From the NCBI GenBank assembly GCA_015207585.1, contig JADEWQ010000028.1, forward strand, positions 16,946 through 55,866: a stretch of DNA of 38,921 bases, written 5' to 3'. Below are positions 1,747 to 33,690 of the stretch, piece by piece. The notes under the pieces are model-generated. The model had not been told where the DNA came from, did not search any database, and saw only the letters and a program-made list of their open reading frames with translations. Made by a program: the position numbers and the translations under genes. The DNA comes from Pleurocapsales cyanobacterium LEGE 06147. Lineage in GTDB: Bacteria; Cyanobacteriota; Cyanobacteriia; Cyanobacteriales; Xenococcaceae. Every line of letters begins with the position of its first letter. The first letter of the stretch is position 1.

Positions 1747-3216
1747 TTAAGTCCTAGGGACGACATAGACAATACGAAAACCGATAAGGTTAAGATGGTC
1801 AACACCGATAAAGTAGTCGCGAGCCGCTGAACGACAGTTGAAAAAAAAGTCCCACCAAGAACCACCGCGTAATACTTTACAATTACTATTTTTTGTTAAC
1901 CAAGTACTGCCATCTATGGGCGCACCCTCATAGCTCTCATGCCAAGTATCGGCGCACCACTCCCAAACATTACCGTGCATGTCGTGTAAACCAAAGGTAT
2001 TGGGCGTAAATTGTCCCACTGGAGTGGTTTTTTTATATTTAACATCGTAATTCGCTAACTCAGTGGTAATCGTCTCGCCAAAATGAAAGGGTGTGGTAGT
2101 TCCAGCACGACAGGCATATTCCCATTCCGCTTCGCTAGGTAATACGTATTCTCGTCCAGTCCGTTTTGATAATCTGACACAAAATTCAACTGCATCGTAC
2201 CAAGAAACACCATCTACAGGGAGATTATCACCTTTGAAGCGGGATGGATTGAAGTTGAGTTCGCGATTGATTTTAGGTAGAGACGCAACTGCTCTCCATG
2301 GTGCCTGAGTTACTTGAAACTTACCCATAAAGAAAGGTTTAATTGTAACCTTATGTTGGGGTCTTTCTCTGTCCTTACTAAATTTTTCTCCTAATGGTGC
2401 GCCCATCATAAATGATCCGCCAGGAATAGAAACCATTTCCAGGATGACACCATTACCGAGGTCTTCAGTGAAATATTGGGCTTGATTGCGGCTGCGATTG
2501 AGCTTAACTTGTGAACCCCAACCAAACAGTCCCGAACGTTCTACGGTTACTGTCACTACGTCAAATGCAAACATCTGAAGCGAGGGAGATGATTGAATAT
2601 AGGAAGTTGCGGTAGGTGGTTGTTGAGAAATCTGGTTTGAGGATTTCGGAGATGAAACAGTTTGAGTAACTGTACCCGCAACACCAGGAAAAATATCAAC
2701 ACCAAGAGTTGCTGCCCTTTCGCACCAATAACACTTACTATAGTGACGACTATAATGATGGCTATCTACCCTGCCACAGACAGTTAACTCATTAACCGCT
2801 ACTTGTAAAGCATCGTGCCAATCTTGAGCGGTAGGACGCAGATGGGGTTGCGTATGTCCCTCGTTAAAGCATTGGAGAAATAACTTTTTTACTTTTGGAT
2901 GAACGACATCGAGAGGAATAGTATTCTGACTGGGACGAATCAAACTATTTTGTCCGGCGTACCAATACCCTTTACGAATCAATTCAGTTTGTTCTGGAGA
3001 TTCCCCTGAACCAATCCATTGCCCCGAAAAAGGATGATAGCCAAACAAGAGATAATGAATCAGTACCGCCAAGCGAAAACGGTCATGGGTTTCTGTTTGA
3101 TTGGTAGTAGCAATATCTTTTCCAAGCAGTTCTACAGGGGTAAAACCTTCTGAACCAACAGTTTGATTAAGGCTTAAACAGTTAATCTGCCCAGCCGCTA
3201 TTCTTAGAATGCCCAA
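1747..3216 (-). CDS. truncated kinase C-lobe fused to FGE-sulfatase-type domain
   Basis: A 489-aa frame. Residues 20-180 resemble the C-lobe and tail of TerY-P-type protein kinases: GSEGFTPVELLGKD after the activation segment, then a DRF-LA-L--LL-GYHPFSG helix, a C-E-GH--P--RPTA--W--AL stretch and a CYWCERA zinc-ribbon-like motif. The glycine loop, catalytic lysine, HRD and DFG motifs are missing, so it cannot be an active kinase. Residues 250-489 are an FGE-sulfatase (SUMF1-like) domain with SIPGGSFMMGAP, GLHDMHGNVWEWCADTW and LRGGSWWDFFFNCRSAARD. The paired active-site cysteines of true formylglycine-generating enzymes are not evident. The frame starts at TTG 3216, one codon after an in-frame stop and inside a repeat end (3219-3247), so it is probably the 3' part of a longer gene and may be a pseudogene. 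Confidence 0.75.
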   Translation of the reverse strand: MGILRIAAGQINCLSLNQTVGSEGFTPVELLGKDIATTNQTETHDRFRLAVLIHYLLFGYHPFSGQWIGSGESPEQTELIRKGYWYAGQNSLIRPSQNTIPLDVVHPKVKKLFLQCFNEGHTQPHLRPTAQDWHDALQVAVNELTVCGRVDSHHYSRHYSKCYWCERAATLGVDIFPGVAGTVTQTVSSPKSSNQISQQPPTATSYIQSSPSLQMFAFDVVTVTVERSGLFGWGSQVKLNRSRNQAQYFTEDLGNGVILEMVSIPGGSFMMGAPLGEKFSKDRERPQHKVTIKPFFMGKFQVTQAPWRAVASLPKINRELNFNPSRFKGDNLPVDGVSWYDAVEFCVRLSKRTGREYVLPSEAEWEYACRAGTTTPFHFGETITTELANYDVKYKKTTPVGQFTPNTFGLHDMHGNVWEWCADTWHESYEGAPIDGSTWLTKNSNCKVLRGGSWWDFFFNCRSAARDYFIGVDHLNLIGFRIVYVVPRT

Positions 3217-9703: not shown

Positions 9704-10882
9704 ATGCTCATAAATTTACCTCAAAGAACAGTAACTTCAACTAAAAGGGGCGGTGTTGAGGTTTCTATTGTCATGCCTTGCTTGAACGAGGCGGAAACGA
9801 TAGGAACCTGTATCGCCAAAGCACAGTGGTATATAAGAGAGCACAATCTCGCCGGAGAAATCATTATTGCCGATAATGGCAGTACAGATGGTTCTCAAGA
9901 GATTGCCACACAAATGGGAGCTCGTGTCGTTCCAGTTCAAGAAAAAGGATATGGCAGTGCCCTGATTGGTGGAATTCGTGCTGCACGCGGTCAGTACATT
10001 ATCATGGGGGATGCTGACGATAGTTACGATTTCACCAACTTGACTCCATTCATTGAGAAGCTACGAGCGGGCTACGATTTAGTCATGGGCAATCGCTTCA
10101 AAGGTGGAATCGAACCTGGAGCTATGCCGCTTCATCACAGATATTTGGGCAATCCCGTACTGACGGGAATTGGCAAGCTTCTCTTTTCCAGTCCTTGCGG
10201 TGATTTTCACTGCGGATTGCGTGGTTTTAGAAAAGATGCGATCGCTCAACTCGATTTGCGTACTACGGGGATGGAATTTGCCAGCGAAATGGTAGTTAAA
10301 GCCACCCTCCACAGAATGCGCATTACGGAAGTGCCCACAACTTTATCTCCCGATGGTCGCAGTCGTCCTCCTCACTTGCGTAGTTGGCGCGATGGTTGGC
10401 GACATTTGCGCTTCCTTTTCTTGTATAGTCCCCGCTGGCTGTTCTTTTACCCGGGAATACTTTTAATCTTAATTGGTTTAGTCGCTACTTTCTGGCTTTT
10501 GCCCAGCCCTAAAGTCCATACTTTACTCTATGCCTCCACAGCGATCGTCATCGGCTTTCAGATAGTTACCTTTGCTCTGTTTACAAAAGTTTTCGCCATT
10601 AGCGAAGGACTGCTTCCCGAAGACCGGCGATTGCGGCGAGTTTTTAAGTATTTCAACTTAGAAACGGGATTGATTGCTGGCAGCATCCTCTTGTTATTGG
10701 GTATTGTTACTTCTATCTATGCCTTTGAAATATGGGAGCAAAGTTTATTCGGTCCCCTCGATCCCGCTCAAATGATGCGCATAGTTATTCCCTCGGTTAC
10801 TTGTCTCGGTCTTGGCTTTCAAGTTATTTTTTCTAGCTTCTTTTTGAGCGTATTGGGTTTAAAAAGACAAACATCAAGCTAA
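9704..10882 (+). CDS. GT2 glycosyltransferase, DPM1-like with C-terminal membrane helices
   Basis: 392 aa. The N-terminal GT-A domain has VSIVMPCLNEAETIG (about 20-34), ADNGSTDGS (56-64), KGYGSALIGGIRAARG (81-96) and the metal-binding MGDADDSYDF (101-110). CGDFHCGLRGF and GMEFASEMVVKA follow, as in dolichyl/undecaprenyl-phosphate hexose synthases. After about residue 235 there are four hydrophobic segments. Such enzymes move a sugar from a nucleotide donor to polyprenyl phosphate, giving the donor used by GT-C enzymes outside the membrane. Several GT-C-like genes lie downstream. Start ATG 9704 is preceded by AAAGGAAAGGAG somewhat further upstream than usual. It heads a same-strand cluster. 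Confidence 0.88.
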   Translation: MLINLPQRTVTSTKRGGVEVSIVMPCLNEAETIGTCIAKAQWYIREHNLAGEIIIADNGSTDGSQEIATQMGARVVPVQEKGYGSALIGGIRAARGQYIIMGDADDSYDFTNLTPFIEKLRAGYDLVMGNRFKGGIEPGAMPLHHRYLGNPVLTGIGKLLFSSPCGDFHCGLRGFRKDAIAQLDLRTTGMEFASEMVVKATLHRMRITEVPTTLSPDGRSRPPHLRSWRDGWRHLRFLFLYSPRWLFFYPGILLILIGLVATFWLLPSPKVHTLLYASTAIVIGFQIVTFALFTKVFAISEGLLPEDRRLRRVFKYFNLETGLIAGSILLLLGIVTSIYAFEIWEQSLFGPLDPAQMMRIVIPSVTCLGLGFQVIFSSFFLSVLGLKRQTSS

Positions 10883-10947
10883 ATAAATAATTTGAGCAAA
10901 GGTAGTAACCTGGTTAAAAACGTTAAATTTTTTTGACAGGAGTGGCA

Positions 10948-11574
10948 ATGGCTATAGGACCTCTTGTGCGTGGTATGCTCGGTCCCCTAGAAAGACCGAT
11001 TTCGGAACTATATCGAAGTATATTTGTTGACCTTACCGCTCTAGTAAATCAGGTTAAGCAGTGGGTTGATGCCTCAAAGATCTTGGAAGTTGGCTGTGGA
11101 GAGGGGGCAGTTACCGAGCGTCTGGTAAAGACTTATCCTCATGCTGAAATAACAGGAATTGACATTACCCCTAAAGTGGGACGGATGTTTCAAGAAGATC
11201 TCACTAGAGTTAATTTTAAGCAGCAAACAATTAAGGATTTCATAGCTGAGAATTCCTCTCAGTTTGACTTATTGCTAATCAGTGATGTAATGCATCACGT
11301 CCCCCCCCAAATGCATGAGGATCTATTAACAGATGCTAAAGATGCTTTAAAACCAGGAGGCTGGCTTGTTCTTAAAGATTGGGAAAGAAGTAAAACACCC
11401 ATTCATCTACTTTGCTATTTGTTAGATAGATATATTACCGGAGACCGCGTTCGCTATAAAAGTGCCGATGAGTTTCGCGATCTAATTAGAGATGTATTTG
11501 GCAAAAACTGTATCAAAGCTGAAAAACGAATTCGTCCCTGGTCAAATAATATTGCCTTTCTCATCCAGGTTTAA
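10948..11574 (+). CDS. class I SAM-dependent methyltransferase
   Basis: 208 aa from ATG 10948, preferred because GACAGGAG sits about 5 nt upstream; a TTG at 10933 gives 213 aa. Motif I is LEVGCGEGAVTERL (46-59), then TGIDITPK with the acidic residue that binds the SAM ribose, ISDVMHHVPP and LKPGGWLVLKDW. The enzyme probably methylates a sugar or lipid intermediate of the surrounding glycan cluster; the substrate is not readable from sequence. A run of eight C occurs inside the gene at 11301-11308 (codons V-P-P-Q), in frame here. It lies 65 bp after the GT2 gene and 26 bp before the next one. Confidence 0.88.
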   Translation: MAIGPLVRGMLGPLERPISELYRSIFVDLTALVNQVKQWVDASKILEVGCGEGAVTERLVKTYPHAEITGIDITPKVGRMFQEDLTRVNFKQQTIKDFIAENSSQFDLLLISDVMHHVPPQMHEDLLTDAKDALKPGGWLVLKDWERSKTPIHLLCYLLDRYITGDRVRYKSADEFRDLIRDVFGKNCIKAEKRIRPWSNNIAFLIQV

Positions 11575-11600
11575 AGGCAGTCGTCAAACAAAGTCATCTA

Positions 11601-12563
11601 ATGAAACAACCTTGGTTATCTGTCATCATGCCAACTTATAATGGCAAAGATTATTTAGCATCGGCTTTAGATTCGATTGTTACTCAAGGTGACCCAGAAA
11701 TTGAATGTATTGTTATTGATGATGGCTCTGTAGATGCAACGCTTTCAATTATAGATACTTATAGTGATATACTCCCTCTCAAGCTCGTCCAAAGAGAGCG
11801 ACAGGGTAACTGGGTAGCTAATACTAATTATGCTCTTTCGGTTGCTCGTGCCGACCATGTTTGTTTCCTTCATCAAGACGATCTTTGGCTGCAAGGTCGT
11901 TTAAGAGTTATGAAAAGTTTGGTCGAGCAAGATCCTCAAGCTAGTTTATACCTCCACCCTTCCCTATTTATTGATGAGAGGGGAAATCGTTTGGGTTTGT
12001 GGCGATGTCCTTTACCTACCTTCCCTGTGTCAATTGAGGCTAAAAAAATGGTGGAGAAATTACTAGTGCAGAATTTTATTTCCATACCCGCACCTCTTTT
12101 TAAGCGAGAAGTAGCTCTCAAACTAGGCGGACTCAACGAAAAGCTATGGTATACTGCCGATTGGGATTTTTGGTTAAAAATTGCTGCTTGTGGTCACACA
12201 GTTTATTATCCTCAGCCATTAGCTGCTTTTCGGGTTCATGGTAGTTCCCAGACAATTCGTCGCAGTTCTAGTTTGGAAGAATTTGAGCAGCAAATGCAAG
12301 GGGTTGTAGATACCCATTGGAACTACTGGAAGACTACTACTAATTTCCAGCCCAGAATTAGACAAATAGCTCTTTTTTCTACGAAAGTAAATACAGCTTT
12401 AGCAGCTTTAGTTCATGGGAAAAAAACTAATTTATGGAAACTGTTGTTGAATTTTTTAACTCTAGGACCTCTAGGTTGGTATCTCTATCAGAGAGATTCT
12501 CGAATCTGGGAAAGGGTATCGGCTAGAGTGAAAGCTCGATTACAAGCACAAACTATAGATTAA
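11601..12563 (+). CDS. family 2 glycosyltransferase
   Basis: 320 aa. The GT-A fold is clear: LSVIMPTYNGKDYLASALDS (6-25), CIVIDDGSVDATL (36-48), ERQGNWVANTNYAL and the DXD-like HQDDLWLQGR (91-100). AP-FKREVALKLGGLNEKLWYTADWDFWLKIA is the acceptor/catalytic region typical of bacterial GT2 enzymes. No membrane domain is evident, although there is a hydrophobic stretch near 275-295. It probably extends a glycan or glycolipid on the cytosolic face. It is 26 bp after the methyltransferase and 18 bp before the sulfotransferase, consistent with one transcript. Confidence 0.9.
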   Translation: MKQPWLSVIMPTYNGKDYLASALDSIVTQGDPEIECIVIDDGSVDATLSIIDTYSDILPLKLVQRERQGNWVANTNYALSVARADHVCFLHQDDLWLQGRLRVMKSLVEQDPQASLYLHPSLFIDERGNRLGLWRCPLPTFPVSIEAKKMVEKLLVQNFISIPAPLFKREVALKLGGLNEKLWYTADWDFWLKIAACGHTVYYPQPLAAFRVHGSSQTIRRSSSLEEFEQQMQGVVDTHWNYWKTTTNFQPRIRQIALFSTKVNTALAALVHGKKTNLWKLLLNFLTLGPLGWYLYQRDSRIWERVSARVKARLQAQTID

Positions 12564-12581
12564 AAGGAGATTATAAGTTAA

Positions 12582-13514
12582 ATGAAAATGCCAAATTTAT
12601 TTATTGTCGGACAACCCAAGTCAGGATCGACGGCATTGCACCAATTTTTGGGGCAACATCCAGAAATCTATATGTCTAACATTAAGGCTCCTCATTTTTT
12701 TTGTAAAGATTTTCACAGAGAAAGCGATGAATATCACCGCATGAAGTTGTATTTTGATTACAGAGATAAAGAGTCTTATTTGCAACTTTTTGCTAAAGCT
12801 AACTCGGAAAAAATCTTGGGAGAGTCTTCCGATCACTATCTATATTCAGAAGTAGCGGCTGAGGAAATATTTCAATTTAATCCAGAAGCGAAAATAATTA
12901 TTATGTTGCGGGAACCAGTTAGTTTTCTTGGTTCTCTACACAATCATTTTGTTAAAGTAACTAACGAAGTTGAGGAAGATTTTACTAAAGCTTTAGCGTT
13001 AGAAGAATATAGAATCAAGGGAGAATGTATCAGTCCGCGTATTATGTGTCCTTCTTGGGCATACTATTCCCAAAGGATAACTTATTACGAGCAAGTAAAG
13101 CGTTATTATAAAGTATTTGACCCCGACCAGATTAAAATTATTATCTATGAGGAATATCGAAAAAATAATGCGAGGATTTATCGAGAAATTCTTGAATTTT
13201 TAGGAGTAGATCCCGAGTTTACTCCTCAATACGATCGCATGAATGTTAGTAAAGAAGTTCGCTTTAAGCAATTAAATCATTTAGTTAACAATCAAATCAT
13301 TAAAAATACGACCAAAACTCTATTTTCTCAAGAATTTAATGATTGGGTGCGAGAAGAGATTGTGGCAAGATTTCTATGGAAAGAGGTGACTAAACCCCCC
13401 GCACCAATCGAAATTAAACAAGAGCTAATGCAAAAGTTTAAACCAGAAGTTTTGAAAATATCCGATTTAATTGGAGTAAATCTGGAAAAGCAATGGGGAT
13501 ACGATCGCATTTAA
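12582..13514 (+). CDS. sulfotransferase family protein
   Basis: 310 aa. PNLFIVGQPKSGSTALHQFL (4-23) is the 5'-phosphosulfate-binding loop of PAPS-dependent sulfotransferases, and KIIIMLREPVSFLGSLHNHF (about 104-122) with Arg110 and Ser118 is the 3'-phosphate site. The C-terminal KIIIYEEYRKN region is also usual in the family. Bacterial members sulfate polysaccharides, glycolipids or lipids. AAAAGGAG about 11 nt before ATG 12582 is the binding site. Placed between glycosyltransferases and a flippase-like protein, it implies that the product of this cluster is sulfated. Confidence 0.9.
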   Translation: MKMPNLFIVGQPKSGSTALHQFLGQHPEIYMSNIKAPHFFCKDFHRESDEYHRMKLYFDYRDKESYLQLFAKANSEKILGESSDHYLYSEVAAEEIFQFNPEAKIIIMLREPVSFLGSLHNHFVKVTNEVEEDFTKALALEEYRIKGECISPRIMCPSWAYYSQRITYYEQVKRYYKVFDPDQIKIIIYEEYRKNNARIYREILEFLGVDPEFTPQYDRMNVSKEVRFKQLNHLVNNQIIKNTTKTLFSQEFNDWVREEIVARFLWKEVTKPPAPIEIKQELMQKFKPEVLKISDLIGVNLEKQWGYDRI

Positions 13515-13560
13515 ATATAATTGCAGAAAATTGATATTCAATTATTAGTTAACTTTTAGA

Positions 13561-14583
13561 ATGCTATCCCTTAAAAAACTACTTTATCCATTATTTTCTC
13601 TAACGCTGGGAATTTTTTTGATCTGGCTAATAATTCGTCTGACTCCCGTTACTTTAGAGGAAATTGCCTCAACTGTACAAAACTTAAATCCAATCGGTAT
13701 TAGTCTGGTTGTTATTACTACGTTTACTCATTTATGGTTAACAGCCTATAAATGGAAATTAATTACGCAAAAATTAACTTCAAACAATCAAACACCTCGG
13801 AAATTTTATCTGTTTTATGTTGTTTTTGCTAATTTAATCGCTCAGTTTGTACCACAGCAAATTGGATTAACTTTTGTGCAAAGTTTGGCTCTTAAAGTAC
13901 ATAAGGTAAGTACTCTTTCTCAAGGTTTTTTCTCAGTTATATATGACCAGTTTCTAAATATTCTTATTCCCGTACTGCTATTACCTCCTTCTGTTTTTTT
14001 GATTTTAGGCAAAATTTCTTTACCCATAGCGATTTTTGTCTCTTTAGGCATTCTTTTAATTACCCACTGCATTATTTTGCAATGGCATAAACCCCTCGTA
14101 ATTTTTCTATTTAGAGCTTACTTTAAAATTAAAAAGATAGCTTCGCGAAATAAACAAGATACTCAATTAAACTTAGAAGACATTCCTATTTTGAGCACGA
14201 GATTTACGATTCGTCTTTTTTGGCTGTCTGTCTTCAGACATGGTAATTGGATTTTGCGTAGTTTTTGTGTGGTAATAGCTGGAGGCTTTACGATTAATTT
14301 TTGGTCGATCGCTTTTACGACTAATTTAGTACAGACAGCAATGATCGTAAGTATTACCCCTGCGAATCTAGGCTTTATGGAATGGAGTTGGATTGGGGGA
14401 TTAGAATTACTAGGTGTTCCGGCGAGCGTAGCAGGTAATTTTGCCTTTATACAGCGTATTTTGGGAATAGTTGCACTAATTGCGATCGCTATGGGGTGTG
14501 GCTTAAGTTTAGCAGCAGACCGTTTCTCTTTAGTTAAAAAAACGCTGAAAACAAATGAGATTAGCAAAGAAACTTGGCGTTGA
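13561..14583 (+). CDS. flippase-like membrane protein (LPG-synthase TM family)
   Basis: 340 aa with about eight hydrophobic helices. The order of motifs, IRLTPVTLEEIASTVQNLNP near the N-terminus, a FVPQQIGLTFVQSLALK region, and SITPANLGFMEWSW near residue 260, fits the lysylphosphatidylglycerol-synthase transmembrane / AglD-type family. Members often sit in glycan or lipid clusters and are proposed to flip or handle polyprenyl-linked sugars, though few are characterised. Its last 29 bp overlap the next gene, so translation is probably coupled. The synthase catalytic domain found in MprF is absent. Confidence 0.75.
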   Translation: MLSLKKLLYPLFSLTLGIFLIWLIIRLTPVTLEEIASTVQNLNPIGISLVVITTFTHLWLTAYKWKLITQKLTSNNQTPRKFYLFYVVFANLIAQFVPQQIGLTFVQSLALKVHKVSTLSQGFFSVIYDQFLNILIPVLLLPPSVFLILGKISLPIAIFVSLGILLITHCIILQWHKPLVIFLFRAYFKIKKIASRNKQDTQLNLEDIPILSTRFTIRLFWLSVFRHGNWILRSFCVVIAGGFTINFWSIAFTTNLVQTAMIVSITPANLGFMEWSWIGGLELLGVPASVAGNFAFIQRILGIVALIAIAMGCGLSLAADRFSLVKKTLKTNEISKETWR

Positions 14584-16060
14584 AACTTTTCTACAGCTAG
14601 CAGTACTAATTTTAGTAATCTCAATATTTCTAAAAGGCATTATTGATGTAGATACTGGGTGGGATACATGGGTTTATCATCTTCCTTTTGCTGCCAGAAT
14701 TTGGAGAATCGTTCCCCCCGAACTCTATTTATTTGAAGACCATGAAGAATTTCGTTTTGCTGGTTTTCCCCTGTTAGCGCAATTTCTTCAGGGATTTTTC
14801 TGGTTTATTACGGGACGCTTGCAAGCTGCTAACTTAGTCGGTTTTTTTAGCTTGGCTTTGTATTTATTTTTTCTCAAATTATATTTTAAGGTTCCTCTTT
14901 ATTTAAGTGCGATCGCTCTTTTGGCTATTCCTTTGGTTCAAATTCATGCCACTTCTTGTTATGTAGATTTACCAGCAAATATAGGTATGTCAATCCTGGT
15001 GCTGATGACCTATTTTCTCTATAAGCAAAAAGATTTTCCGACTAAATGGGATCTGCTAGTTATTGTTCTGGCTGCTGCTGGTGCATCCAATATTAAGCCG
15101 CAGTTACAACCATTAGTCTTTTTAATTCTCTGTTTTCTCGGATTAAGAATAGCTTGGCTGGGATGGAGACAAGCCGATGCACCAAAACAATGGTTACTAA
15201 AAGCCATACCGATTACTTTGGTTGCCTCCCTGATAATTTTTGCTACACCGATTAAGAATGTAGTTATTTATGGCAATCCTTTTTATCCGGTAAGAATTGA
15301 AATAGTAGGTAAGGTTTTAAATCACAAATTGGGTTTATATAGCGACTCTCCTGACTACCTCAAAAATGTTTCTCCGTCTCAGAGATGGCTTTATTCGATT
15401 GTTGAAATTAATAGTCCCGAGTGGTCAGTAGATCAGTATAGTCTGGATGAATCTCAAAATCGTATGGGGGGTTTTTTTGGGGTTTATGTTGTTTTCAACC
15501 TAATTCTTTTTGGATATATAGCTTTCAGGGATTGGCTGCGAAGCAGGGGTATGAAAGAGATTAACTATTTTCGAGAAACTATTGTTGCCGTTATTGTCGT
15601 GGCAATTATGACGACGGTGGCTGCTAATTTTCCCCAATCTCACGAACTTCGGTACTATATGTACTGGATGATCTCTTTAGTGTCTTTAAATTTAGCTTTA
15701 ATTACTCGTCGCGTCCGTGAAACCCCTCGCCTTTGGCGAGATCGCTCATTCCCAAACTCTAAGTTATTCAACTCTTACACTGTAGGAGTTGTCTATCTTT
15801 TTTTCTTAGCAGTGGTAATCGCTAAAACGGAGTTTTTTTATATAAAACCCAATTTCTATACTCTCGAACAACACATCCAGAATTATACTGATTCGAATGT
15901 TATAGCGGCAATTAAACCAGGAGATGAAGTATGTCTGGTAGGCAAGCAACCTCATACCTTTTTATATGCTTCTAAGTTTCATCCTTATCTGAACTATACA
16001 TATTCAATTAAATCGGCTGGCGAACCAAATCTATGTGCTGGACGGGAAAAAATACTTTAA
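14555..16060 (+). CDS. polytopic membrane protein, GT-C-like, paralogue 1
   Basis: 501 aa, with about ten hydrophobic segments. After the first helix comes KGIIDVDTGWDTWVYHLPFA, an acidic first loop like the catalytic Asp loop of GT-C glycosyltransferases of the ArnT/PMT type. Then LLAQFLQGFFWFITGRLQAA, HATSCYVDLPANIG and ATPIKNVVIYGNPFYPV, shared with the two following genes. The family is not one I can name; GT-C is inferred from topology and the first loop. The start overlaps the upstream gene by 29 bp, and the stop abuts the next ATG exactly. Near 15733-15755 a short palindromic repeat (CCTCGCCTTTGGCGAG) is read in frame in a variable loop. Confidence 0.75.
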   Translation: MRLAKKLGVETFLQLAVLILVISIFLKGIIDVDTGWDTWVYHLPFAARIWRIVPPELYLFEDHEEFRFAGFPLLAQFLQGFFWFITGRLQAANLVGFFSLALYLFFLKLYFKVPLYLSAIALLAIPLVQIHATSCYVDLPANIGMSILVLMTYFLYKQKDFPTKWDLLVIVLAAAGASNIKPQLQPLVFLILCFLGLRIAWLGWRQADAPKQWLLKAIPITLVASLIIFATPIKNVVIYGNPFYPVRIEIVGKVLNHKLGLYSDSPDYLKNVSPSQRWLYSIVEINSPEWSVDQYSLDESQNRMGGFFGVYVVFNLILFGYIAFRDWLRSRGMKEINYFRETIVAVIVVAIMTTVAANFPQSHELRYYMYWMISLVSLNLALITRRVRETPRLWRDRSFPNSKLFNSYTVGVVYLFFLAVVIAKTEFFYIKPNFYTLEQHIQNYTDSNVIAAIKPGDEVCLVGKQPHTFLYASKFHPYLNYTYSIKSAGEPNLCAGREKIL

Positions 16061-17548
16061 ATGAAGATTAAATTAAAAGAAAAAAGATTTGGCATAACAA
16101 CTTTACTCAGTCTATTTGCCTTAGTCGTGACTACATCGGTATTTTTTAAAGCAATTATCGATGTAGATTTAATGTGGGATACGTGGGTTTATCATCTCCC
16201 CTTTGCCGTCAGAATTTGGAGAATCATTCCCCCCGAACTGTATTTATTTGAAAGTGTTCACGAGCATCGTTTTGATGGTTTTACCTTGTTAGCAGAATTT
16301 CTTCAAGGATTTTTCTGGTTTGTTACCGGACATTTACAAGCTGCTAACTTAGTCTGCTTTTTCAGTTTGATTTTGTATATTGTTTTTCTCAAAGTATATT
16401 TTCAGGTTCCACTCTATTTATCTGCGATCGCTCTTTTGGCTATTCCGCTGGTTTTGACTCACTCTACCACCTGCTATGTAGACTTGCCAGGGAATATCGG
16501 TATCTCAATTTTAATCTTGATGATTTATTTACTCTACAAGCAAAATAATTTTCCGACTAAATGGGATCTAGGAGTTATCTTTCTAGCTGCTGCTAGTGCA
16601 TCTAATATCAAATTGCAGTTAGAACCTATAGTTTTTTTAATCTTGTGTTTTATTGGTATACGAATTGTCTGGTTGCGTTGGAGACAAACTAAAGCTGATA
16701 AAACTCAATGGCTGCTTAAAACAATACCGATTGCTTTGGTTGCTTCGCTGTTAATTTTTGCCACTCCTATAAAAAATATTGCTCTTTATGGCAATCCTTT
16801 TTATCCCGTAAAATTTGAAATAGCAGGCAGGGTTTTAAATCACAAATTGGGACTTTACAGTCAATCTCCAGATTATCTCAAAGAAGCTCCTAGAGCGCAG
16901 AGATGGCTTTATTCTATCCTCGAAATTAATAGTCCTAATTGGACAGTAGATCAATTTAGTTTGGATAAATCTAAAAATCGCATGGGAGGTTTTTTTGGTG
17001 CTTATGTAGTTTTTAATCTAATTCTTTTCGGATATATTACTTGGCGCGATCTCGGCTCTGCCGAGCCGCGTAGCGACCGTTGTCGGGAAACTACTGTTGC
17101 TTTTATTGTCTTAGTAACTATGTCTGCAGTGGCTGCTAATTTTCCTCAATCTCACGAGTTGAGATACTTTATGTACTGGATGATCTCGTTAGTATCTTTA
17201 AATTTGTGTTTGCTTTCTCATGATAACCAAGTATCGTCTTTTTCGCTGCAATTGTTGAAACCTAAATATAGTGGACTTGCTTATGCTTTCTTTCTGGCAA
17301 TTGTACTTGTCAAAATTGGCGATGTCTATGCCAAACCTACTTCCTACACTCTTGACAAACATCTACAGGCAATTGTTCAACCAAAAGTTTTAAGTAAAAT
17401 TAACCCCAATGAGGAAGTTTGTATTGTAGGTAAACAACCTTATACTTTTGCTTATGCTTCTCCTTTTCATACTCAGTTGGGTTATTCTTATTCGGTTAAA
17501 GCTTCTGGTTCAGCGGATAATTGCGAGGGAAGAAGGGTAGTTAAGTAA
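16061..17548 (+). CDS. polytopic membrane protein, GT-C-like, paralogue 2
   Basis: 495 aa, closely related to paralogues 1 and 3 along its whole length, with the same FFKAIIDVDLMWDTWVYHL loop, FLQGFFWFVTGHLQAANLV, STTCYVDLPGNIG and a C-terminal soluble part with CIVGKQPYTFAYASPFH. ATG 16061 directly follows the stop of paralogue 1. In the loop near 17048-17085 a GC-rich palindrome (CTCGGCTCTGCCGAG) adds the peptide DLGSAEPRSDRC, with no counterpart in the other two paralogues. Function: probably a glycosyltransferase or polymerase using a polyprenyl-linked sugar outside the membrane, as inferred for paralogue 1. Confidence 0.75.
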   Translation: MKIKLKEKRFGITTLLSLFALVVTTSVFFKAIIDVDLMWDTWVYHLPFAVRIWRIIPPELYLFESVHEHRFDGFTLLAEFLQGFFWFVTGHLQAANLVCFFSLILYIVFLKVYFQVPLYLSAIALLAIPLVLTHSTTCYVDLPGNIGISILILMIYLLYKQNNFPTKWDLGVIFLAAASASNIKLQLEPIVFLILCFIGIRIVWLRWRQTKADKTQWLLKTIPIALVASLLIFATPIKNIALYGNPFYPVKFEIAGRVLNHKLGLYSQSPDYLKEAPRAQRWLYSILEINSPNWTVDQFSLDKSKNRMGGFFGAYVVFNLILFGYITWRDLGSAEPRSDRCRETTVAFIVLVTMSAVAANFPQSHELRYFMYWMISLVSLNLCLLSHDNQVSSFSLQLLKPKYSGLAYAFFLAIVLVKIGDVYAKPTSYTLDKHLQAIVQPKVLSKINPNEEVCIVGKQPYTFAYASPFHTQLGYSYSVKASGSADNCEGRRVVK

Positions 17549-17576
17549 AAGTTTTTTCTTACTTAGTCATTTTTTA

Positions 17577-17700
17577 AAATATAATTTTGCCTCACGCAAA
17601 GGCGAGGCAGCGCGTTGCGGAGGTTCCCTCCGTTGTAGCGACTGCCGTTGCAAAGGACGCGAAGAAGGTTATTCTGCTAGCGATCGCTTTCAGTTAATTG
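17577..17700. repeat. GC-rich palindromic repeat between paralogues 2 and 3
   Basis: The 195-bp gap holds a string of palindromic modules (CGCAAAGGCGAGGCAGCGCG, TTGCGGAGGTTCCCTCCG, TAGCGACTGCCGTTGC) and a HIP1 site. Such modules are dispersed through cyanobacterial genomes. It interrupts the otherwise tightly packed cluster, so paralogue 3 may need its own promoter or depend on read-through. Confidence 0.65.
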
Positions 17701-17743
17701 ATGATTTATTTTTACTTACAATATATCTATTCAATTAAAAAAA

Positions 17744-19324
17744 ATGACTTTAATTAAAAAAGATAATATTATCCAAAACATGAAAATTAAATTTTTTCAA
17801 AAAAGATATGGAGTAGTAACCTTTCTCAATTTAGTTGTTTCGATCGTTGCAATCTCGCTTTTTTTTAAGGCAATTATTGATGTAGATAAATCTTATGATA
17901 CTTGGATGTATCACGTTCCCTTTGCTGCCAGACTTTGGGGAATTATTCCTAGAGAATTACATATTTTTTATGATGCTGAAGAAGCTCGTTTTGCTGGTTT
18001 TCCTGTTTTAGTTGAATTTTTGCAGGGATTTTTTTGGTTTATTACCGGACGGGTTCAAGCAGGTAATTTAGTAGATTATTTAAGTTTGGGTTTATATTGT
18101 TTTTTTCTTAAAGCTTATTTTCAAGTTCCTCTTTATCTATCGGCGATCGCCTTTTTAGCAGTTCCCTTGGTTCAAGTCCACGTTACCTCTTCCTATGTGG
18201 ATTTGCCAGGAGGTGTATGCTTATCAATTTTGATAATGATGACCTATTTACTATATATAAAGAAAGGAGAAGATGTTTATAACAAGCGCAATTTGTTTTT
18301 AATCTTTTTAGCCGCTGCTGGTGCTGCTAATATTAAATTTCAATTAGTTCCTTTAGTTGTCTTTGTTCTCTTTTTTGCTTTATTCCGGATTATCTGGCTG
18401 CGCTGGCAAAAAATGCAAGCAGGCGAGAAACCTTATAAGTGGCTGCTAACTTTTATTCCTCTTGTTTTTTTGACCAGTTTGTTAATTTTTGCCACGCCAA
18501 TTAAGAATGTAGTTATCTACGGCAATCCTTTTTATCCCATAAAAATAGAAGTAGCAGGTGCAGTTCTCAATCACCAATTAGGTTTCTATCAACACGCCGC
18601 AGATTCTATTAAAGACGTACCGCAAGTGCAGAGATGGCTTTACTCTATCCTAGAAATCAATGCTCCGAGATGGTCAATCGATCAATGGAGTCCCGATCCA
18701 ACTAAAAGCCGTCTTGGTGGTTTTTTTGGTGCCTATGTTGTTTTCCATTTACTGCTGTTAGGCTACCTATTTTGGCGCAATCGCAGTCGCGAAACTACAG
18801 TGGCGATCGCTCTATTGGCAGTAATTTCAATTGTCACTGCCATTGCACCCCAATCTCACGAACTTCGCTACTATCTATATTGGATGATCTTGCTAGTATC
18901 TTTAAATTTATACTTAGTTACTCGTCTAGAGCGATCCTCCTCTAGGGATGCTGCTATACCGCGCAGCGCCTCGCCGGAGGCGAGACTGCCCCAAAAGTCG
19001 CCAAGACTCAATTCCCGAAATTTAGGACTGGTCTGTCTTGTATTTTTATCTATAGTAATTGTTAAAACTAATTTTGTTTATGTAACGCCAAATTTTTACA
19101 CTTTAGACAAGCATCTCAAAACTTTTGTCAATTTTAATCTCTTAAGAAATCAAATTCAGCCAGGCGATGCGCGCGTCTGTTTGGTGAACAGAAGTAAGCA
19201 ATATCGCAAAACTTTTCTCTATTCTTCTTATTTTCATCCTCAATTGGGTTATTCCTATTCAATTAAATCAGCTCTAGATCCTAGCGAATGTAGAGAAATA
19301 ACTAAAGTCATAGATGTTCACTAA
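17744..19324 (+). CDS. polytopic membrane protein, GT-C-like, paralogue 3
   Basis: 526 aa from ATG 17744. The second Met (17780) aligns with the starts of the other paralogues (MKIKFFQKRYGVVTFL) and is the more likely start, giving 514 aa. It shares FFKAIIDVDKSYDTWMYHVP, LQGFFWFITGRVQAGNLV, SSYVDLPGGVC and ATPIKNVVIYGNPFYPIKIE with its neighbours, again with about ten membrane segments. The variable C-terminal loop (DNA 18945-18990) contains an in-frame palindrome (CGCCTCGCCGGAGGCG) coding for an extra Ser/Arg/Pro/Ala-rich peptide. The three copies differ mainly in these loops and the C-terminal soluble part, which may reflect different acceptor choice. It ends the cluster. Confidence 0.75.
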   Translation: MTLIKKDNIIQNMKIKFFQKRYGVVTFLNLVVSIVAISLFFKAIIDVDKSYDTWMYHVPFAARLWGIIPRELHIFYDAEEARFAGFPVLVEFLQGFFWFITGRVQAGNLVDYLSLGLYCFFLKAYFQVPLYLSAIAFLAVPLVQVHVTSSYVDLPGGVCLSILIMMTYLLYIKKGEDVYNKRNLFLIFLAAAGAANIKFQLVPLVVFVLFFALFRIIWLRWQKMQAGEKPYKWLLTFIPLVFLTSLLIFATPIKNVVIYGNPFYPIKIEVAGAVLNHQLGFYQHAADSIKDVPQVQRWLYSILEINAPRWSIDQWSPDPTKSRLGGFFGAYVVFHLLLLGYLFWRNRSRETTVAIALLAVISIVTAIAPQSHELRYYLYWMILLVSLNLYLVTRLERSSSRDAAIPRSASPEARLPQKSPRLNSRNLGLVCLVFLSIVIVKTNFVYVTPNFYTLDKHLKTFVNFNLLRNQIQPGDARVCLVNRSKQYRKTFLYSSYFHPQLGYSYSIKSALDPSECREITKVIDVH

Positions 19325-32457: not shown

Positions 32458-33690
32458 ATGCTTAAAGTAGTCAAGATAAGGTTATATCCAACCAAGGAAC
32501 AGAAAGAACACCTAGCCAAGAGCTTTGGTTGTTCTCGCTGGGTGTATAACTATATGCTTGCTAAGACTAATGAGCAGTACAAGGCAACAGGTAAAGGTCT
32601 TTCGCATTACGATCTGACTAAATTGTTGTCTACCCTTAAGAAAGAGAATGAATGGCTTAAAGAACCCTACTCTCAAACTCTACAATCGGCTTGTTTAAAC
32701 TTGTCTAAGGCTTTCGTTAACTTCTTTGAGAAACGCGGAGGCTACCCTAGATTTAAATCTAAGCATCATAGACAATCTATTCAATACAAGCAAAATGTCA
32801 AGATAGAAGGTGACTATCTTAAAGTACCTAAGTTAGGGTTAGTAGTAGCCAGAATACATAGACAATTAGAAGGTAAGTTAAAAACAGTCACTATTTCTAA
32901 GAACCCAGACGGTAAATACTTTGCTTGATTATTGTTTAAGGATGGAGTTGCTAAACCCAAACAATCAAAAGAAGGTAAAGCAATTGGTATTGACTTAGGG
33001 TTAACTGACTTTTGTATTACTAGCGATGGGTCAAAGTTGAAACAACCTAAATGGTTGCGTAGACACGAGAAGAACCTAAAGCGTAAACAACGAAAGCTTT
33101 CTCGTCAAGTTAAAGGTAGTAAGAACCGAGATAAAGCAAGACTTAAAGTAGCTAAAGTTCAAAGTAAGATATCAAGATGTCGTGAGGATTTTCTGCACAA
33201 ACTATCCCGCAAGATAGTAAACGAGAACCAAGTGATTGTGTTAGAAAGTCTAAATGTAAAAGGTATGGTGCGCAATCCTAATCTATCTAAAGCTATCAGT
33301 CAGGTAAGTTGGGGACAGTTTGCTACTATGCTTAAATACAAAGCAGAGCAAGAAGGTAAAGTCTATTTAGAAGTAGATAGATGGTTTCCTTCTAGTAAAA
33401 CCTGTAATGTATGTCTTAATGTAGTAGGTAACCTACCTTTAGATATTAGAGCTTGGACTTGTAATAGCTGCAATACCCATCACGACAGGGATATTAACGC
33501 TTCAATTAACATAATGAATGAAGGCTTGCGGATATTGTCCTTAGGAACTAGGGACACTGCTTGTGGAGGGAGCGTAAGACGAAGTCGCCGCAGCTCCCGG
33601 ACTCAGGTTCCGGGAGAACGGCGACCAAAGAGTGGACGTAAAAAATCCACTTCTAGGCAGTCCCCGGTGAAGCAAGAAGCCCACGCTTAG
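32458..33690 (+). pseudogene. tnpB: TnpB RNA-guided nuclease gene with one in-frame stop
   Basis: The frame is open from ATG 32458 to TAG 33688-33690 (410 codons) except for TGA at 32926-32928 (codon 157). Both sides match TnpB: LRLYPT-type start, FGCSRWVYNYMLA, PYSQTLQSACLNLSKAF and YPRFKSKHH before the stop; KAIGIDLGLTDFCI, VIVLESLNVKGM and HHDRDINAS after it. The RuvC Asp, Glu and Asp residues (about 179, 263, 345) and the zinc-ribbon cysteines (CNVC, CNSC) are intact. Family members usually have Ser at the stop position (YFAS), so TCA to TGA is likely. Reinitiation at TTG 32932 would give the nuclease half alone. It is probably inactive. Confidence 0.88.

Follow-up and report, generated by a model that had tools for sequence, protein, structure and literature searches.

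Multi-component transmembrane glycosylation systems combine a glycosyltransferase (GT) synthase of the GT-A fold, a flippase and a GT-C enzyme, as set out in the accessible sections of two accounts (PMC8035078, PMC11127046). In archaea, a 2015 study predicted, in the part available, that UPF0104 proteins flip lipid-linked sugars for glycosylation (PMC5898192). In Actinoplanes, a Wzx/Wzy route equipped with a sulfotransferase and a route based on GtrA lie in separate clusters and are not combined, according to extracts of the report (PMC13390465). A gene cluster of Pleurocapsales cyanobacterium LEGE 06147, whose genome measures 6.2 Mb, places a candidate synthase, flippase and GT-C transferases beside a sulfotransferase. 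The window analyzed here is a stretch of 38,921 nucleotides (assembly GCA_015207585.1, contig JADEWQ010000028.1, handled as C238, positions 16,946 to 55,866 of the forward strand). Eight genes, all on the plus strand, occupy its positions 9704-19324:

A, 9704..10882, plus strand: family 2 glycosyltransferase (GT2) resembling AglJ, DPM1 and GtrB, candidate polyprenyl-phosphate sugar synthase (Glycos_transf_2, AglJ relative).
B, 10948..11574 (frame listed from TTG 10933), plus strand: S-adenosylmethionine-dependent methyltransferase, accessory (Methyltransf_25).
C, 11601..12563, plus strand: second GT2, candidate second sugar transferase (Glycos_transf_2).
D, 12582..13514, plus strand: sulfotransferase of the type using 3′-phosphoadenosine-5′-phosphosulfate (PAPS) (Sulfotransfer_3).
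E, 13561..14583, plus strand: stand-alone MprF-type flippase, candidate flippase of lipid-linked sugar (LPG_synthase_TM, model).
F1, 14555..16060, plus strand: membrane protein of predicted GT-C fold, candidate glycosyltransferase (predicted structure).
F2, 16061..17548, plus strand: second F paralogue (identity to F1).
F3, 17744..19324 (start probably 17780), plus strand: third F paralogue (identity to F1).

A first-pass annotation, made from the letters alone, had proposed here a biosynthesis system for a sulfated, polyprenyl-linked glycan. All eight genes of the types it named are present on the plus strand, and Pfam confirms the types of A-E. The listed frames are spaced by 50 (A-B), 26 (B-C), 18 (C-D) and 46 (D-E) bases; F1 begins before E ends, F2 directly follows F1, and 195 bases separate F2 from F3. 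Translation of B probably begins at ATG 10948 rather than at TTG 10933, since a homologue starts at the position of residue 6, and alignment of the paralogues places the probable start of F3 at the internal ATG 17780.

The cluster fits the multi-component plan, with the synthase recognized by sequence, the GT-C enzyme by a model of F1, and E as a candidate for the flippase role. In the proposed scheme, A would charge polyprenyl phosphate with a sugar from a nucleotide sugar at the inner membrane face. Inside the cell, C would add a second sugar and D, using PAPS, a sulfate; some species would also add a methyl group, through B or a similar methyltransferase. E would then carry the lipid-linked sugar to the periplasmic face, where F1-F3 would transfer it from the lipid to a surface polymer (lipopolysaccharide, capsule or sheath polysaccharide, or alternatively a protein), each F copy probably making its own linkage. 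This whole scheme is judged somewhat probable; its A-E-F part is held to be more likely than the whole, and sulfation of the lipid-linked sugar less likely. What is seen directly is a gene set that is conserved and co-inherited, together with the modeled folds of F1 and E; all substrates, the order of the second and third steps, and the acceptor are inferred. The idea of a polyprenyl-linked glycan as the product survives in part: A does resemble polyprenyl-phosphate sugar synthases, but the lipid-linked sugar is more likely a donor than an end product.

Sequence searches say little about F1-F3. None of the three matches Pfam. F3 touches the NCBIfam family LIC_10190 (NF047510) at 40.2 bits, below the cut-off of 100, and F1 and F2 do not; 13 of 54 F homologues match this family at E 0.001. 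An F profile found nothing at E 1 among the sequences of solved structures, and of the 54 members one touches PMT_2 and two touch Ost5 (E 0.01). Because profile and Pfam searches are near-empty, the GT-C fold of F1 is visible from a model and not from sequence. F1, alone of the three copies, was modeled from a 54-sequence alignment comprising the three window copies and 51 of 59 F frames (eight were excluded as shortened, cut by a contig end or near-duplicate), with a predicted local distance difference test (pLDDT) score of 93.6 and a predicted template modeling score of 0.94. Foldseek ranks 1-11 are all GT-C proteins (ALG9, ArnT, AftA, Pmt4, oligosaccharyltransferase, ALG3 and AftD), with rank 1 alone below E 0.001. 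The best VIA-align match is ArnT (Z 18.3, root-mean-square deviation 4.8 over 386 residues, identity 12%). VIA-align ranks 1-43, down to Z 8.5, are GT-C enzymes, GT-C-containing complexes and glycosylphosphatidylinositol transamidase subunit U, which we take to be a relative of GT-C enzymes; these lists do not name every family, and absence from them was given no weight. By its model, F1 has the GT-C fold, as the first-pass annotation had supposed for all three membrane proteins; F2 and F3 are 65% and 58% identical to F1.

Residues D37, Y41, D138 and R366 are invariant in 54/54 F sequences, and D31 is kept in at least 90%. Helix 1 of the model spans residues 9-30, and D37 stands just past it. 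In GT-C enzymes the first outer loop, which follows helix 1, carries the DxD-type motif. With its side judged from the basic N-terminus, the D37 region would fall in this loop, in line with the acidic DxD-like GT-C feature. A DxD motif is named for GT-C enzymes in the available text of one account (PMC8035078).

ArnT, the best match of F1, modifies lipid A, and F1, with 501 residues, ends in a short C-terminal tail after the last long helix of the model. Both points count against a route in which F1-F3 pass the sulfated sugar, perhaps whole, to pilins or S-layer proteins in the manner of archaeal dolichol-phosphate N-glycans. Nor was a gene for an acceptor protein recognized in the cluster, and the fold is silent on the acceptor. 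Such protein glycosylation draws support from the structural matches of F1 to PMT and oligosaccharyltransferases and from archaeal AglJ being the best NCBIfam family of A. It is also in keeping with two archaeal cases, both taken from portions of their sources: UPF0104 adjoins an AglD-like GT2 and a PMT/STT3 relative (PMC5898192), and a sulfated tetrasaccharide on dolichol phosphate is transferred by AglB in Halobacterium (PMC11980604). Protein as the acceptor is considered somewhat unlikely, and transfer to a surface polymer remains the preferred reading.

The three F copies look old and distinct. In a tree, F3 falls in a clade with copies from four other genomes (support 100/100), while F1 and F2 fall in separate lineages shared with other genera, with support of only 95/78 and 93/72, respectively. 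Pairwise synonymous divergence (dS) among F1, F2 and F3 is about 1.0-1.3, with a ratio of nonsynonymous to synonymous divergence of about 0.25 (NG86; near saturation, hence rough). A recent amplification of F is not supported, given copies in different shared lineages and this dS. Their age and distinctness make three separate linkages or acceptors more likely than a dosage effect.

E belongs to PF03706 (LPG_synthase_TM, 1.1e-18) and exceeds the TIGR00374 cut-off (56.4 bits against 43.2). At 340 residues it has the length of the MprF flippase half, the synthase half being absent. The model of E matches six MprF entries at Z 17.3-19.2, the next fold following at Z 5.0. E is thus predicted to fold as an MprF flippase domain, for which a lipid-linked sugar is a candidate cargo only.

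The enzymes assigned to the cytoplasmic side are recognizable by sequence. A matches Glycos_transf_2 (5e-28), and its best NCBIfam family, AglJ (TIGR04182), is matched at 130.4 bits over residues 19-295 against a cut-off of 325, which makes it a relative and not a member. The best solved relative of A is dolichol monophosphate mannose synthase (4e-13), and a simple hydropathy count gives four C-terminal hydrophobic segments. A is therefore a candidate for a membrane-linked polyprenyl-phosphate sugar synthase of the GT-A fold. C matches Glycos_transf_2 (3.2e-24) and D matches Sulfotransfer_3 (6.6e-17), with 3rnl (5.2e-38) and heparan sulfate N-sulfotransferase (3e-8) as solved relatives of D. 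Aligned to 3rnl, D has the N-terminal PAPS-binding loop and the REP..S stretch that mark PAPS sulfotransferases. Both are kept in 8/8 sequences; the loop of the window protein reads KSGST, and the remaining seven have KSGTT. The genome encodes adenosine-5′-phosphosulfate (APS) kinase, for PAPS. By the same hydropathy count, B, C and D of the window have zero membrane spans and should thus act inside the cell, before flipping; PAPS, moreover, is cytosolic.

The distribution of these genes was followed in 243 genomes of the order Cyanobacteriales, with thresholds of E 1e-60 for A and C and of 1e-40 for E, which leave weaker paralogues of these broad families out of the counts. D was searched at 0.001, which 167/243 genomes match; its 15 top matches, at 559-593 bits, are taken as orthologues, and the following one scores 243 bits. 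F occurs in 35 genomes, A in 58, C in 18, D in 15 and E in 15. D and E orthologues share the identical 15 genomes, all of which belong to the family of the window and carry A, C and F; C occurs in these and three more. In the three other genomes sampled from the family, neither a match to F nor any A, C, D or E orthologue was found at the set thresholds. A is found in 25/35 genomes with F and in 33/208 others (Fisher 8e-11, a value that ignores kinship). In a phylum-wide sample, F occurs in 17/386 genomes, one of them, a weak match (8e-27), outside the order.

Loci around F were fetched for 33 of the 35 F genomes (G078 and G133 are known from records only), and frames of at least 100 residues were considered. 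The order A-C-D-E-F, in a single orientation and with 1-3 F copies, recurs in 13/14 other F-bearing genomes of the family, and A and C overlap by 4 bases in 9/13 of these conserved clusters. Both the recurrence of the gene order in relatives and the linked distribution are thus as the first-pass annotation had anticipated. Ten genes flanking the cluster in the window were compared with 23 loci (L041-L063, 7-20 kb, some cut by contig ends), and none was the best match of any frame there; an eleventh, a sasA-like kinase, was excluded, as it matches unrelated kinases. Inherited synteny of a long chromosomal stretch is not supported, since the flanks are not shared in these loci, and chance adjacency of glycan genes is rejected by the common distribution and conserved order. 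The gene set is a unit of inheritance.

The identical distribution of D and E, and the position of both between C and F in the conserved clusters, would be needless if two separate machines shared one operon. In that alternative, the sugar that A, E and the F proteins attach outside the cell would carry no sulfate, and C, D and B would modify a different molecule inside, for example a glycolipid or a repeat unit exported by Wzx/Wzy or ATP-binding cassette (ABC) machinery encoded elsewhere. It has in its favor that a synthase, a flippase and a GT-C enzyme make a complete set without C and D (PMC8035078, PMC11127046) and that cyanobacterial sulfotransferases lie mostly in Wzx/Wzy or ABC clusters (PMC8205485), both according to the parts of these sources at hand; F genomes lacking a D orthologue, counted below, add to it. 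Two machines are considered unlikely, and one route joining C and D to A, E and F is preferred.

B stands apart from this conserved set. It matches Methyltransf_25 (1.8e-17), and methylation, which the first-pass annotation included, is rejected as a core step, as counterparts of B are absent from all 13 conserved clusters (0/13). Some clusters hold other methyltransferases, of the Methyltransf_25 type (L042), of another type (L044) and of the FkbM type (L041 and L062). B is 56% identical to a protein adjoining A and C in L138, and in two genomes that lack F, D and E, homologues of B (56% identical) and C (55%) stand together with A and a GtrA protein. B is accessory, yet its placement is not random.

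Thirty-three sampled genomes carry A but no F, and 12 of these were fetched, one locus each. A is at least 69% identical in 8/12, and seven of these eight encode a small candidate flippase no more than about 3 kb away from it, none being recognized in the eighth. The types found are GtrA in three genomes, EamA/TMEM234-like in three and LPG_synthase_TM in one. The GtrA genes lie within 3 kb of A, that of G221 being assigned by its 97% identity to the GtrA of G202. The EamA/TMEM234-like matches, within 1.2 kb of A, fall below curated cut-offs and lie on the opposite strand, as does the LPG_synthase_TM gene, and for these reasons the pattern of candidate flippases beside A is only suggestive. A PMT_2 protein near A scores above the cut-off in G202 and below it in G231. 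The A relatives of the other four fetched genomes, at 40-43% identity (L143, L147-L149), neighbor GT87, DUF2142 or unassigned membrane proteins, pointing to further unnamed cyanobacterial pairs.

Several observations weigh against the proposed scheme. It is read from genes, predicted folds and distribution, and a sulfotransferase among the neighbors is no proof that the lipid-linked sugar is the sulfate acceptor. The model of E, built from 11 sequences, reaches a pLDDT of 81.1, a middling confidence, and one homologue of C (L138) shows one hydrophobic segment. F occurs without an A orthologue in 10/35 genomes and without a D orthologue in 20/35, so that the presence of F need not mean this pathway. 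The exception to the conserved order, G233, has rearranged genes and A on a separate contig. A Xenococcus metagenome-assembled genome (MAG) outside the sample has the arrangement A-D-D-E-GT4-F, with two sulfotransferases and a GT4-type enzyme but without C. No flippase was recognized near the four A relatives at 40-43% identity. Finally, terminator-like stems number 14 against 8.9 in shuffles (standard deviation 2.8), and some lie inside the gene run, so that a single transcript is not established.

Members of the F family also occur in other settings. F lies near A in 4/7 Geminocystis-type genomes and near GT2 genes in three Polyangiaceae/Sorangium loci, two of them on the other strand. In Microcystaceae, F is accompanied in the loci tested by methyltransferases of the FkbM type, long GT fusions and PMT_2 proteins, and the PMT_2 neighbors of F in Microseira and UBA11371 score below or at the cut-off. 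Related rows with F occur in L107-L110 and L119. Three endosymbionts of the diatoms Epithemia and Rhopalodia and a similar genome, uoEpiScrs1, hold in succession genes of 1001 and 387 residues, F and a gene of 522 residues. Where tested (L064), the partners of F in this row are a GT fusion, a methyltransferase of the FkbM type and a PMT_2 protein, and Crocosphaera watsonii holds a 386-residue gene, F and a PMT_2 gene. Retention of the F row in small endosymbiont genomes suggests a needed surface glycan.

The family extends to Myxococcota-type records, including several Polyangiaceae (L116, L120-L123, L125-L132), with a weak A-like GT2 match nearby in 6/13 loci. In Defluviicoccus (L134), F adjoins a DUF2304 protein, and L135 is a further record of the family. 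In the 'Cyanobacteria' MAG HKST-UBA04 (L136, 6775-7902 and 9914 onward), a distant sulfotransferase (23% identical to D) and an F relative (30%) lie about 2 kb apart on opposite strands, and this pair may represent a second sulfated system. In G233, a shortened F frame of 316 residues on the opposite strand beside the rearranged cluster (L041, 9416-10366) is likely a remnant; two full-length F genes lie on the same contig. In nine loci (L049, 15258-17993; L059, 17213 onward; and seven others), a gene for a protein family of about 900 residues stands beside A at that edge of the cluster and is directed outward; the two members tested are UPF0182 proteins.

Elsewhere the window holds hemF and genes for cyanophycin synthetase, cyanophycinase, a histidine kinase with a KaiB domain and a glycoside hydrolase family 57 enzyme, a content that marks it as cyanobacterial. 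Promoter matches show no excess (26 against 30.1 in shuffles), an Rfam search of the window gave no match, and neither did defense-system models run against A, D, E and F1. A protein with a formylglycine-generating-enzyme-like FGE-sulfatase domain (2.2e-54) is encoded upstream of the cluster (1747-3216, minus strand); none of the 28 window proteins tested matches a sulfatase. An IS605-type OrfB/TnpB transposase at 32458-33690 is split into two adjacent frames, an N-terminal helix-turn-helix followed by the catalytic part, and looks broken. No polyketide or peptide synthase was found among 18 window proteins in and around the cluster. This speaks against a pathway to a sulfated small molecule, or to a free glycolipid staying in the membrane, in which F would do late tailoring, and the several GT-C copies likewise point to repeated external transfer. 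Sulfo- and methyltransferases do occur in a polyketide cluster common to Hyella and Pleurocapsa, as the consulted part of one report has it (PMC7381351). A product of this kind is considered very improbable beside the glycan scheme.

The synechan report, in the sections available, treats sulfated bacterial polysaccharides as cyanobacterial (PMC8205485), and a sulfated capsule of Vibrio has since been reported (PMC11641403). If the proposed scheme is true, cyanobacteria would possess a compact route to sulfated surface glycans distinct from Wzx/Wzy and ABC export, and its enzymes could be transferable to other hosts. Two poorly characterized membrane families would also gain a role, stand-alone PF03706 proteins in flipping sugar-lipids and the F family in GT-C transfer, the latter being found in cyanobacteria, Myxococcota-type records, Defluviicoccus and diatom endosymbionts.

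The first-pass annotation did not recognize this gene set as a described pathway. That holds at most for the sulfotransferase-bearing version: the architecture of synthase, flippase and GT-C enzyme is known as the multi-component system, whereas no account was found of a sulfated version that carries several old and divergent GT-C copies. The search covered mainly open-access literature, available in part, and no description of this gene combination was found there. Synechan (xss) and other cyanobacterial sulfated exopolysaccharides likewise have sulfotransferases in a glycan cluster, but in the portion available their route exports by Wzx/Wzy or ABC (PMC8205485). Neither Wzx or Wzy nor an ABC exporter has a Pfam match among 28 window proteins (of 36 listed frames; the rest of the genome was not searched). 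The archaeal set around UPF0104 (PF03706) has the same three kinds of protein adjacent; it is archaeal, a sulfotransferase goes unmentioned in the accessible text, and its function is likewise a prediction (PMC5898192).

The nearest pathway logic is that of Halobacterium salinarum N-glycosylation, where sugars are added singly to dolichol monophosphate, sulfated, flipped and transferred by AglB, as described in the sections at hand (PMC11980604). The same sections differ from the present cluster in that the two sulfotransferases are annotated with alkaline-phosphatase domains and not PAPS domains, and in that the transferase is AglB (PMC11980604). A bacterial counterpart of haloarchaeal sulfated-glycan assembly, with a whole sulfated oligosaccharide built on polyprenyl monophosphate, flipped by a stand-alone MprF-type protein and transferred by three GT-C enzymes from an uncharacterized family, is possible but regarded with more doubt than confidence. 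AglJ, the named family nearest to A, belongs to haloarchaeal N-glycosylation.

ArnT and the ArnC/ArnE/ArnF route form another known system for comparison. ArnT is the best structural match of F1, yet the two share the low identity given above, and amino-arabinose genes were not recognized in the cluster. The likeness to the ArnC/ArnE/ArnF route lies in the small EamA-like proteins, below Pfam cut-offs, near A orthologues in three genomes. In the multi-component systems, represented by GtrA/GtrB/Gtr of O antigen and CsbB/GtcA/YfhO of teichoic acids, the plan of a synthase, a flippase and an outside-acting GT-C enzyme is the same and the GT-C sequences are divergent, as far as the available sections go (PMC8035078, PMC11127046). 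The flippases named there are of the GtrA, Wzx, SMR and MATE types, whereas that of the present cluster is of the MprF type. To this common plan the cluster adds a fixed second GT2, a PAPS sulfotransferase and up to three old tandem GT-C paralogues.

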